This document shows positions 35,986 to 50,220 of a stretch of DNA of 50,437 bases, one piece after another. The first letter of the stretch is position 1; the number at the start of each line of letters is the position of its first letter. The stretch lies in assembly GCA_016188475.1 (NCBI GenBank), contig JACPHT010000003.1, positions 1-50,437 on the forward strand. Direction: 5' to 3'. The position numbers and the translations under genes were made by a program. The notes beneath the pieces are model-generated. The model did not search any database, had not been told where the DNA came from, and was given only the letters and a program-made list of their open reading frames with translations. The DNA is from Candidatus Uhrbacteria bacterium (GTDB lineage: Bacteria > Patescibacteriota > Patescibacteriia > UBA9934 > GWF2-40-263).

Positions 35986-36877
35986 ATAATTCAGGATGAA
36001 AATAATTTCTTCTCTACTCTATGATTGCAATGTTTGTCCGAATATTTTCTCGGCCCGAGGGCCGAGTCCGACCAACCTAATAGATTGATCTCGACCTGGG
36101 ATCATGTCCTTCAAAGCTCTAAAAGAGCGAAGGAGGAAATATCCCTAAAAAGGAGGTGATCCACCCACAGCTTCCGCTACGGGTGCCTTGTTACGACTTA
36201 GTCCTTATCATCAGCCCCACCTTCCGTCGCCCTACGGCGACGTTCGGGTGTTGCCAACTCTCTTGACTTGACGGGCGGTGAGTACAAGACCCGAGAACGT
36301 ATTCACGGCCGCGTGGCTGATCGGCCGTTACTAGCGATTCCGGCTTCATGAGGTCGAGTTGCAGACCTCAATCTGAACTGGGACCGGCTTTGTGGGATTA
36401 GCTCCATCTTGCGATTTGGCTGCCCATTGTACCGGCCATTGTAGCGCGCGTGTCGCCCTGGACATAAGGGCCATGCTGATTTGACGTCATCCTCACCTTC
36501 CTCCCTCTTGCGAGGGCAGTCTCCCGTGACACTTATAACGCGGGATAAGGGTTGCGCTCGTTACCCCACTTAAGGGAACAGTTCACACCACGAGCTGACG
36601 ACAACCATGCAGCACCTAGACAGCACCCTCGAAGGCGTCCCGACTTTCATCAGGATTGCAGCTGTCTTTCAAGCCCAGGTAAGGTTCCTCGCTTACCATC
36701 GAATTAAACCGCACGCTCCACCGCTTGTGCGGGTCCCCGTCTATTCCTTTGAGTTTTAATCTTGCGATCGTACTTCCCAGGCGGAATGCTTAACGTGTTA
36801 ACTTGGTTGAACGGCTCCGAGAGGGTCGATACTCCCGAAACCTAGCATTCATAGTTTACGGCGTGGACTACTGGGGT

Positions 36878-37154
36878 CATTTTGTTACTTGGACGAGTCA
36901 TTTCTGCTCGTCTCTTTGTGTCGCCACAAAGTTCGGACTATATCTTCATCCATATTTTTGATATGGAGATCGGCATGTAGTCTCTGAGGATTCCCTTTAA
37001 TCAAGGGTCTTTCCTGCGGATTGTCCGCACTCAAACTGTGTTAGGGGTCGTTTTAACATTGGTGTTAAAATATCCTCGTTTGAGATACTCGGATGTTCCC
37101 GCATATAGCCGATTGACTCTGTACTGTCTCCAGTACAGGAGACACTTTTGTAGT
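36878..37154 (-). other. Group I self-splicing intron (ORF-less, ~277 nt) in 16S, near E. coli position 793
   Basis: Interrupts GGGATTAGAT|ACCCCAGTAGTCC. Core strings TGCGGGAAC (P), AATCCGCAGG (Q), CTCAGAGACTACATGCC (R), AAGATATAGTCC (S). P1 AGAU^AC with GUGUCU puts U.G at the splice site; last intron nt is G. Confidence 0.92.
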
Positions 37155-37830
37155 ATCTAATCCCATTCGCTACCCACGCTTTCGTCTCTGAGCGTCAGAA
37201 ACGTTCCAGTGCACTGCCTTCGCCTTTGGTGTTCTTGCCGATATTAACGCATTTTACCGCTACACCGGCAATTCCGTGCACCTCTCCCGTCCTCTAGTCC
37301 GATAGTCTCACCCGCAGCCTCCAGGTTGAGCCTGAAGATTTGACGAATGACACATCGAACAGCCTACAGACGCTTTACGCCCAATAAATCCGGACAACGC
37401 TTGGGGCTCACGTATTACCGCTGCTGCTGGCACGTGATTAGCAGCCCCTTATTCATAAGGTACTGTCATTTGTTCGTCCCTTATAAAAGCCATTTACGAC
37501 CCGAAGGCCTTCGTCTGGCACGCGGCATAGCTCCTTCACACTTTCGTGCATTGAGGAATATTCTTGACTGCAGCCACCCGTAGGTGTCTGGGCCGTGTCT
37601 CAGTCCCAGTGAGCCGGGCCACGCTCTCGCGCCCGGTAATCGTCATAGCCTTGGTGAGCCATTACCTCACCAACTAGCTGATAATGCATAGGCCCCTCCC
37701 GAGCCACCGGAGTTTTCAATGAGAATGACTTGCGTCCCCTCATCAATATCGTGTATTAGTCCACCTTTCGGTGAATTATTCACGAGCTCGGGGTAGGTTA
37801 CCAATGTGTTCCGCTCCCGTTTGCCACTAA

Positions 37831-38267
37831 CAGATGTCGGACATCGGAGGTCGGAAATCGGAGTAAAATTATTTCCAATTTTCGCGCAAACGGTAAATTT
37901 GTTTGCCGATAATAATATATTCTTCAAGCAATTTTTTCCCTTCGTCATTTGAAACAACACCAATCTGTACACAGTCATCAATATGACTTTTAGTTTCATT
38001 GCAAGAACCAAGTGCTCTTTGAAGATACATTTTGAATTCAGCCACACTTCTTCCAAAACCCTCTGCGATATTTGCATGGATTGAATTTGAAGATCGACAC
38101 AATTGATCTCTTATATGTCGACAGTGTGGTGGAAAAGTTTTTGCTAACTTTATAATATGTGGATACAGTTTTTTCGATCGTTTATACGCATCGATGTCTT
38201 CGTAGCTGTGAATCATATATTATTAGTATAGCATTTCCGACTTCTGATTTCTGAAGTCCGACTTCTG
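37831..38267 (-). other. Intervening sequence (IVS) in 16S helix 6/V1, flanked by ~32-nt imperfect inverted repeats
   Basis: cagatgtcggacatcggaggtcggaaatcgga ... tccgacttctgatttctgaagtccgacttctg; 16S sequence resumes on both sides. Confidence 0.88.
37869..38216 (-). CDS. Four-helix-bundle protein of the 23S-rRNA-IVS ('S23') family
   Basis: SYEDIDAYKRSKKLYPHIIKLAKTFP...RDQLCRSSNSIHANIAEGFGRSVAEFKMYLQRALGSCNETKSHID: typical family signature. Confidence 0.93.
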   Translation of the reverse strand: MIHSYEDIDAYKRSKKLYPHIIKLAKTFPPHCRHIRDQLCRSSNSIHANIAEGFGRSVAEFKMYLQRALGSCNETKSHIDDCVQIGVVSNDEGKKLLEEYIIIGKQIYRLRENWK

Positions 38268-38557
38268 TTCGTTCGACTTGCATGCCTTAGACCTGCCGCC
38301 AGCGTTCGTCCTGAGCCAGGATCAAACTCTCAGTAAAGATCCCTACTCCGAAGAGTCGGGATTCTGTCATTGCAAAGAGCCACTGAGAAGGCTTCTTTGC
38401 GTGAACAAACATTACAATCACACAACAGAGAAGTTCATATTATGTGATGTTATTCAATTGTAATGGACGTCTAACTTCAAGCGTAATGAAAACTCTCACG
38501 AGGCCTCCCTCGGGAGAGTGTTTGGGTGAATTGGGTGCTTGAACTAGTAGTGGTGGC

Positions 38558-39305: not shown

Positions 39306-39381
39306 AAAATAGAAACCAGTCGCTGGAAGGTGACTGGTTTTTGTATTCAATAAAAAAGATCCGCAGTTGCGGATCAAGAGA

Positions 39382-39723
39382 TCAGAGTGGGTACCATGAC
39401 CCATCACCTCCACCTTCGTGTCTGACTTGGCACCCTTCATTCCAGCGTTTGTTCGCGCGTTCAGTAGCGTCGCGAGTGAGTTCTTCTGGAACTTTGAGAA
39501 AATGAATCTGCTTTTCTCGTGGAAGTTTGCACAGAATATCAGATGATACTTCGAGGCCGCGATTTATTGTGGATACCGCTGTCTCCATTGTACATCCGCA
39601 CGGACAGTTAGTAACAACATAGATCTCTCCATTCAGAGTGTCGATCTGTAGAATCCAAGTCCTGCCGGCTGCATCAACAAACGTTCTCGAGTTTGTTCTG
39701 TGAGGGTGACTGAAAGCTGACAT
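39382..39723 (-). CDS. Hypothetical protein under SAM-I riboswitch control
   Basis: ATG (complement 39721-39723) after AAGGAGGAAGTA; MSAFSHPHRTNSRTFVDAAGRTWILQIDTLNGEIYVVTNCPCGCTMETAVS... Confidence 0.75.
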   Translation of the reverse strand: MSAFSHPHRTNSRTFVDAAGRTWILQIDTLNGEIYVVTNCPCGCTMETAVSTINRGLEVSSDILCKLPREKQIHFLKVPEELTRDATERANKRWNEGCQVRHEGGGDGSWYPL

Positions 39724-39744
39724 TACTTCCTCCTTGGCGAAACA

Positions 39745-39768
39745 AAAATCGCCTTTCAATTGGCGACG
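39745..39768 (-). terminator. Intrinsic terminator of the SAM-I expression platform
   Basis: Minus: GTCGCC-AATTGAAA-GGCGATTTTTG. Confidence 0.8.
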
Positions 39769-39783
39769 CATCAAGAGTTTCAT

Positions 39784-39885
39784 AGTATCTGTCCCAACTT
39801 GGGATGGACTTCGCACCTTGCCTTTCGACAGGTTGCGGGCGGAGCATTGGGCCATTCCCTTAACATCTCCACTCTCTTGATACGT
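39784..39885 (-). promoter_or_regulatory. SAM-I (S-box) riboswitch aptamer
   Basis: Minus: GTATCAAGAGAGTGGAG..GGGAATGGCCCAATGCTCCGCCCGCAACC..GGCAAGGTGCGAAGTCCATCCCAAGTTGGGACAGATAC; matches the conserved S-box string order. Confidence 0.93.
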
Positions 39886-39901
39886 TTTTAATTGTGAAAT
39901 T

Positions 39902-39930
39902 ATATTACGTCAGGATTTCTCTATTGTCAA
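39902..39930 (-). promoter_or_regulatory. Promoter of the riboswitch transcript
   Basis: Minus: TTGACA, 17-nt spacer, TAATAT. Confidence 0.75.
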
Positions 39931-49024: not shown

Positions 49025-49113
49025 AGTCTGATTATAACACAACCCTTGACGTTTTTCAGTGTATTCCATAAGCTGACAACGTCGTGAGAATGTTCACGAA
49101 TTTGGAGGTTCTG

Positions 49114-50220
49114 ATGAATCGAGATATGGGGATGCTGTGCCCCCAGAAAGGGGGCAACATCACGGTTGAGGCTGTTGGGCCGGGACATCCGGACAAGGTC
49201 TGCGACCAGATCAGCGACGCAGTGCTCGATGCCGCACTCGAAGGAGATCCGAACAGCCGTGTCGCAATCGAGACGTGCGGAAAGGGTCGAATCAAGCTCG
49301 TTGGCGAGATGACGACCGCAAGCGTGATCGATCTTCACGAGCTCGCAATGCGGGTTCACCGCGAGATCGGTTACAACGACGACGAGGTCGGCGGTGTCGA
49401 TATCGACGTCGTTCAGCAGTCGCCTGACATTGCCATGGGCACGAACGTTCAGCGCAAAGGCGCTGGTGACCAGGGCATCATGGTCGGATACGCGGTAAAC
49501 ACACCAGAGTACGAGTACATGCCGATCGCCTATGCCATCGCGCAGAGGCTAGTGCAAAAACTCGTCGAGGTTCGCGAGCAGGGAAAGCTCACATGCTTGC
49601 GTCCTGACAACAAGAGCCAGGTCGTGATGAAGGATGGAAAAGTAGTTCACGTCACGATCGCGACACAGCATACGGACGACGTGTCGATCGAGGATTTGCG
49701 CGAAATGGTTCACAGATATGTGATCATGCCTGTGATCGGCGAGGTCCCGTTCGAGGCGTGTACTATCAACGGTACTGGCAAGTTCGTCAAGGGTTCCTTC
49801 GCGGCAGACGCTGGAGTGACCGGTCGCAAGATCGTCTGTGACGCATACGGACCATGGGTTCCGGTCGGCGGCGGCGCGTACTCGGGCAAGGATCCGAGTA
49901 AGGTGGATCGTACGGCGGCCTACATGGCGCGCTACATCGCAAAGACGATCGTGGCTCGAGGCATGGCCGAGGAAGCTCTCGTCCATCTCGCGTACACTAT
50001 CGGTCAGACAGATCCGGACTCGGTTGACGTGTGTGTGTACAACCCGTCCGATCCCGAGTTCGACTTCAAGAACTGGGTCCGTGACAACTTCCCACTTTCC
50101 CCGGGCGGCATGATCGACCTCTTCGATCTTACCAAACCACAGGGGTGGTCCTACCGTGAAACGGCCGCCTACGGCCACTACGGTCGTCCTCAATTCCCCT
50201 GGGAGAAAGTGGTGCTCTAA
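49114..50220 (+). CDS. metK: S-adenosylmethionine synthetase
   Basis: TVEAVGPGHPDKVCDQISDAVLDAAL, GAGDQGIMVGYAVNTPEYEYMPIAYAIAQRL, FVKGSFAADAGVTGRKIVCDAYG, GGGAYSGKDPSKVDRTAAYMARYIAKTIV; SD tttggaggttctg. Confidence 0.97.
   Translation: MNRDMGMLCPQKGGNITVEAVGPGHPDKVCDQISDAVLDAALEGDPNSRVAIETCGKGRIKLVGEMTTASVIDLHELAMRVHREIGYNDDEVGGVDIDVVQQSPDIAMGTNVQRKGAGDQGIMVGYAVNTPEYEYMPIAYAIAQRLVQKLVEVREQGKLTCLRPDNKSQVVMKDGKVVHVTIATQHTDDVSIEDLREMVHRYVIMPVIGEVPFEACTINGTGKFVKGSFAADAGVTGRKIVCDAYGPWVPVGGGAYSGKDPSKVDRTAAYMARYIAKTIVARGMAEEALVHLAYTIGQTDPDSVDVCVYNPSDPEFDFKNWVRDNFPLSPGGMIDLFDLTKPQGWSYRETAAYGHYGRPQFPWEKVVL

Follow-up and report, generated by a model that had tools for sequence, protein, structure and literature searches.

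A SAM-I riboswitch upstream of an orphan 113-residue protein in Candidatus Uhrbacteria: a probable OFF switch among S-boxes that precede family-less genes

What does a riboswitch for S-adenosylmethionine (SAM) control when the gene behind it belongs to no recognised family? The question is raised by a 50,437-nucleotide (nt) stretch of a Candidatus Uhrbacteria bacterium genome (contig JACPHT010000003.1; hereafter the window), in which a SAM-I riboswitch, or S-box, precedes the gene for a 113-amino-acid (aa) orphan protein, P0001. We regard the element as a transcriptional OFF switch, through which one small, probably zinc-binding protein would be made when SAM is scarce, and give this reading a probability of about 0.72.

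A complete S-box and the protein behind it

The initial annotation had described a complete aptamer, a terminator and a consensus promoter upstream of a small protein with a CPCGC motif. All of these parts are found, in order, on the minus strand between 39930 and 39382: promoter, SAM-I aptamer, intrinsic terminator, Shine-Dalgarno (SD) sequence and the 113-aa open reading frame (ORF), with a second terminator after the ORF (Table 1). The RF00162 covariance model matches over its full length with 49.4 bits (E 2e-8, window search) against a gathering score of 44.4 bits, and this is the single RF00162 match in the whole genome (893,411 bases, 97.7% complete). Helices P1 to P4 around the junction are present in the covariance-model alignment and in a fold of the aptamer alone, in which P1 is formed by GUAUC (39883-39879) and GAUAC (39789-39785). 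A pseudoknot candidate between the P2 loop and J3/4 (AUGG/CCAU) was matched by eye without a formal score, as were candidates in related S-boxes (CUAG/CUAG in L040, UCGG/CCGA in L035 and L018). By the features tested the aptamer is a member of the SAM-I class, and as such would be expected to bind SAM.

P0001, which carries CPCGC at residues 40-44, matches no Pfam or NCBIfam family and has no sequence relative in the PDB; no methionine-pathway enzyme or transporter was among the matches, which agrees with the earlier statement that the protein belongs to no recognised methionine or cysteine family. We surveyed the 361 ORFs behind 91 S-boxes (that of the window plus 90 from relatives) and found one strong relative, with 34% identity over 94 residues (E 1e-13). 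Its gene comes second after an S-box (66.8 bits) in Parcubacteria bacterium SG8_24 (LJNP01000010), which belongs to another family of the class. The two proteins have C40, C42, C65 and C98 in common and the same ending, giving a conserved pattern of CxCG...C...C plus a C-terminal GGxGxWYPL. The proposal that the window gene is a new member of the S-box regulon is supported, and is strengthened by this close homolog in an S-box operon of another family. Beyond it, searches of 381 genomes from the class and 333 from the phylum returned one weak SG8_24 paralog and chance matches; we judged the weak matches in G001 (EF-Ts) and G080, and those in G384, G285 and G093, to be of the latter kind.

Because of its conserved cysteines, P0001 is probably a small zinc-binding protein; a zinc-ribbon check returned no zinc-ribbon family or fold match. 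The structure prediction that the initial annotation had proposed did yield a model, in which AlphaFold2, run on a two-row alignment, places six strands and a C-terminal helix (predicted local distance difference score, pLDDT, 73; predicted template-modelling score, pTM, 0.63), while the accompanying fold search against the PDB gave no match below E 0.5. Two candidate relationships were not borne out. Likeness to DUF6527 (PF20137) covers a short stretch around CPCGC, residues 36-52, and at 13.4 bits (E 0.074) does not reach the curated cut-off of 23.6. The same CxCG domain was not established in the proteins behind S-boxes L036 (profile E 0.02-0.14, three-row model) and L038 (E >1). No relatives of P0001 were found in plasmid, phage and viral collections, and a phage or plasmid origin is therefore without support.

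The terminator and the alternative helix

A segment after the aptamer had been proposed to pair back and give an alternative fold. The pairing itself stands. Its core joins CTCTTGAT (39777-39770) to ATCAAGAG (39881-39874) and extends over the full arms given in Table 1 to 12 pairs, one of them G-U; when the downstream 30 nt were shuffled 1000 times, no shuffle did equally well. In L036, L038 and L044, three other non-metK S-boxes from the same bacterial family, CGUAUUCAG and CUGAAUACG pair in the same register (p 0.001-0.003). The best value among 13 metK S-boxes of that family is p = 0.009, and elsewhere 1 of 71 S-boxes falls below p 0.05. When hand-cut segments of five distinct sequences were aligned on the terminator-arm register, 83% of the cells were paired, and one position showed three pair types; with the partner shifted by 1-3 columns, no more than 45% of the cells were paired. 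Judged by this comparison, the alternative helix is real, with compensatory changes among the same-family non-metK S-boxes.

The way in which such a helix would affect the terminator is less straightforward than had been implied. In the OFF-switch model, SAM binding would let P1 form and leave CTCTTGATGCGT free, so that the full 6-bp terminator would halt transcription. Without SAM, the CTCTTGATGCGT segment would pair with the P1 5' strand and J1/2; the SAM site would thereby be taken apart, and the helix would claim the two basal pairs of the terminator. The 4-bp stem that is left, set back from the U-tract, would allow the polymerase to read through to the 113-aa protein, which would be made when SAM (or methionine) is low. 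In the fold model all six terminator pairs form when P1 is enforced; when the alternative helix replaces P1, the closing terminator pair goes from 0.87 down to 0.12 and its neighbour from 0.98 down to 0.45, and the remaining 4-pair stem lies two bases off the U-tract.

Several points weigh against this reading. The helix strips only the two basal terminator pairs, the 4-pair core being predicted in both states, and a fold combining the alternative helix with a 5-bp terminator lies only 0.3 kcal/mol above the best one. For L038 and L044 the fold model shows no weakening of the first hairpin by the alternative helix. The calculated stability of P1 plus terminator falls short of that of the alternative fold by 12.7 kcal/mol. 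That is a great deal for SAM to offset, unless folding is kinetic, and the SAM decision would consequently have to fall during transcription. The covariation test involves only five distinct sequences, and the weak SG8_24 paralog (G305:C28) has no S-box in the 3.2-kb stretch examined. The modelling describes a plausible switch, yet no clean exclusion; for this reason we hold the OFF model to be the most likely and treat ON and translational readings as live rivals.

Under those readings, which we consider unlikely, the aptamer binds SAM but turns the gene ON, or exerts its effect chiefly through translation, either because SAM relieves repression or because a GGCGA/UCGCC hairpin before the SD matters. 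The alternative helix and the terminator overlap by two nucleotides only, leaving the core hairpin in both states, and the helix abuts the terminator, which it may even stabilise by stacking; in a longer transcript, moreover, GGCGA pairs with UCGCC beside the SD. A nucleosidase-like phosphorylase-superfamily target in one relative could also suit high SAM. On the other hand, the commonest S-box gene in the same bacteria is metK, which encodes the SAM-making enzyme, and the fold model adds the two basal pairs to the terminator when P1 is formed. An ON direction would also depart from existing descriptions of SAM-I switches, which present them as OFF switches.

Table 1. Features of the S-box locus and of its transcript (window coordinates)
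Feature	Position	Strand	Remarks
Sigma-70-type promoter, TTGACA-17 nt-TAATAT	39902..39930	-	10/12 consensus matches; a short way 5' of aptamer
Complete SAM-I (S-box) aptamer	39782..39886	-	RF00162 match, model 1-108
Alternative (anti-aptamer) helix, 5' arm ACGTATCAAGAG (= ACGUAUCAAGAG)	39874..39885	-	overlaps P1 5' strand and J1/2
Alternative helix, 3' arm CTCTTGATGCGT (= CUCUUGAUGCGU)	39766..39777	-	directly 5' of terminator arm
Switch terminator, GTCGCC-8 nt-GGCGAT then TTTTGTTT	39740..39767 (hairpin 39767-39748)	-	folds alongside P1
Shine-Dalgarno, AGGAGG	39729..39734	-	from sequence; 5 nt 5' of ATG (39723)
Gene for 113-aa orphan protein P0001	39382..39723	-	ATG 39723, stop at 39382
Terminator 3' of gene	39358..39375	-	makes gene a single-gene transcription unit

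As a side observation, a copy of TCTCTTGAT lies at 39370-39381, just before the post-gene terminator, and is complementary to the aptamer 5' strand at 11/12 bases. It could be either a chance occurrence or the leftover of a duplication. Elsewhere in the window, the 16S rRNA gene (36149-38337, minus strand) has two interruptions: a group I intron (36914-37164) and, near the 5' end, an insertion of about 420 nt, which codes for a 115-aa protein of the 23S_rRNA_IVP family (37869-38216).

S-boxes and their genes in related bacteria

RF00162 matches occur in 105 of 383 relatives. More than half of the S-boxes surveyed (52/91) sit upstream of one BLAST cluster with MetK motifs, and many of those remaining precede small proteins without families; a Pfam scan of ten proteins behind non-metK S-boxes gave no match at the curated cut-off. 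One S-box precedes the phosphorylase-superfamily protein mentioned above, which looks like a methylthioadenosine/S-adenosylhomocysteine (MTA/SAH) nucleosidase, and other targets resemble, by inspection, MetF, a DNA C5-methyltransferase and another methyltransferase. The C5-cytosine methyltransferase, behind L086 (G144:C1:156452-156548), appears on inspection to have a helix-turn-helix-like N-terminus.

The family-less genes fall in part into small families of their own. Family D (A3) is found in 7 of 367 genomes, every time behind an S-box, with no relatives found in viral contigs. Family B (A4) stands behind S-boxes in G174, G020 and G305, and two weak matches flank the S-box of G016. Because the profiles of both families derive from S-box-linked members, the finding is that no others were detected in these genomes, and absence elsewhere is not implied. 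Families C and E supply more small proteins without a Pfam family behind S-boxes (L013, L026, L032, L035, L056, L062 and L070); at L070, C, D and E are apparently fused into one protein. Tandem S-boxes in one leader, with two RF00162 matches within about 200 nt, were seen at G267:C28, G079:C10 and G174:C8. A zinc-knuckle theme running through all non-metK S-box genes was considered and dropped, as only a minority show one. Orphan genes behind S-boxes recur in this group, and the window case is one of them.

The window's own metK (49084-50220, plus strand) has no S-box, as the initial annotation had stated. The same genome (G000) encodes a second, divergent MetK paralog of 347 aa (contig 1, 133686-133928 region; L153:712-1755, minus strand), which has GQPDK instead of GHPDK and in which GAGDQGIM and GGGAxSGKDPxKVDRS are both replaced; from these motifs it looks like a degenerate or repurposed MetK. 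A low-threshold RF00162 test for a hidden S-box found none at either metK.

In the window the P0001 gene sits between khpA and trmD, with rpsP after trmD. Four of the six same-family non-metK S-boxes (G000, G016, G020 and G028) lie within about 10 kb of trmD, and it therefore seems that the switch was kept at this place with different genes behind it. Might the protein act on SAM-dependent RNA modification, with small proteins tuning or replacing the SAM-using RNA methyltransferases trmD and rlmN when SAM is scarce? This idea concerns the role of the protein and is compatible with the OFF-switch model. It draws on the position beside trmD in the window and between trmD and rlmN in G016, G020 and G028. 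It is an argument from neighbourhood, the genes behind the switch vary between genomes, in G003 and G008 the S-box and trmD are on different contigs, and the S-box of G305 adjoins a DEAD-box helicase; we think it quite improbable.

In a genus mate, G002, khpA adjoins trmD with neither S-box nor ORF between them. Together with the differing genes behind the switch among relatives, this would suit an S-box that is a relic, moved or kept after its original target was lost, with the small ORF incidental or non-functional. Such a history is, in our judgement, very improbable: a distant family retains the protein with 34% identity, and there too its gene is part of an S-box operon; the aptamer score, SD and promoter are intact; and the alternative helix carries compensatory changes.

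A start of AACGTAT and the motif GTGCGA are common to the aptamers L001, L036, L038, L040 and L044, and outside this set GTGCGA was seen in a single aptamer, L050, the gene of which is not on the contig. In a tree of the aptamers the signal was too weak to prove common descent of a single S-box lineage. As part of the favoured explanation, the window switch would be its genome's version of a non-metK S-box lineage that mostly drives family-less genes in these Patescibacteria. A broader proposal, to which we would give slightly less than even odds, is that Patescibacteria possess a SAM-starvation regulon of small families exclusive to S-boxes, including a trmD-side S-box lineage with its own alternative helix, whose downstream genes, P0001 among them, have been exchanged. 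Near the S-box island of G028 we also noted a bacterial protein homologous to the major vault protein (MVP), with MVP shoulder and vault repeats (L146:3459-5201, minus strand).

Comparison with known S-box systems

The literature searched, which did not extend to subscription papers and preprints, yielded no description of SAM riboswitches in these bacteria. Patescibacteria do feature in a paper on riboflavin switches (PMC4508563) and in one on riboswitches as expression tools, inducible expression in the group being still to be developed (PMC11665869). Direct clues to gene function are few in uncultivated Patescibacteria, and riboswitches provide some of them by naming the metabolite that a gene answers to; here the S-boxes tie several unannotated protein families to SAM. 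If the present model is confirmed, the label 'hypothetical protein' would become 'made when SAM is low', giving work on its function a concrete starting point; the switch may, in addition, serve as a natural metabolite-tunable control element in this group.

The window element resembles known SAM-I riboswitches in its full-length aptamer, which scores above the gathering threshold of RF00162, and in the intrinsic terminator before the gene. It differs in its target, a protein without a family rather than a methionine, cysteine or SAM gene; as P0001 has no recognisable function of these kinds, its gene lies outside the usual definition of the S-box regulon. In descriptions of the classical S-box the antiterminator uses the P1 3' strand, whereas the alternative helix described here uses the P1 5' strand and J1/2. 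The metK S-boxes of the same bacterial family have the same aptamer class and the same aptamer-terminator layout, but none of the 13 has an alternative helix at the level of the window site, the AACGTAT start or GTGCGA. The SG8_24 operon likewise places a homolog of the 113-aa protein behind an S-box, but with an orphan gene of family B between the switch and the homolog and with another expression platform. The riboswitch class is known, then, while the targets and the lineage are new.
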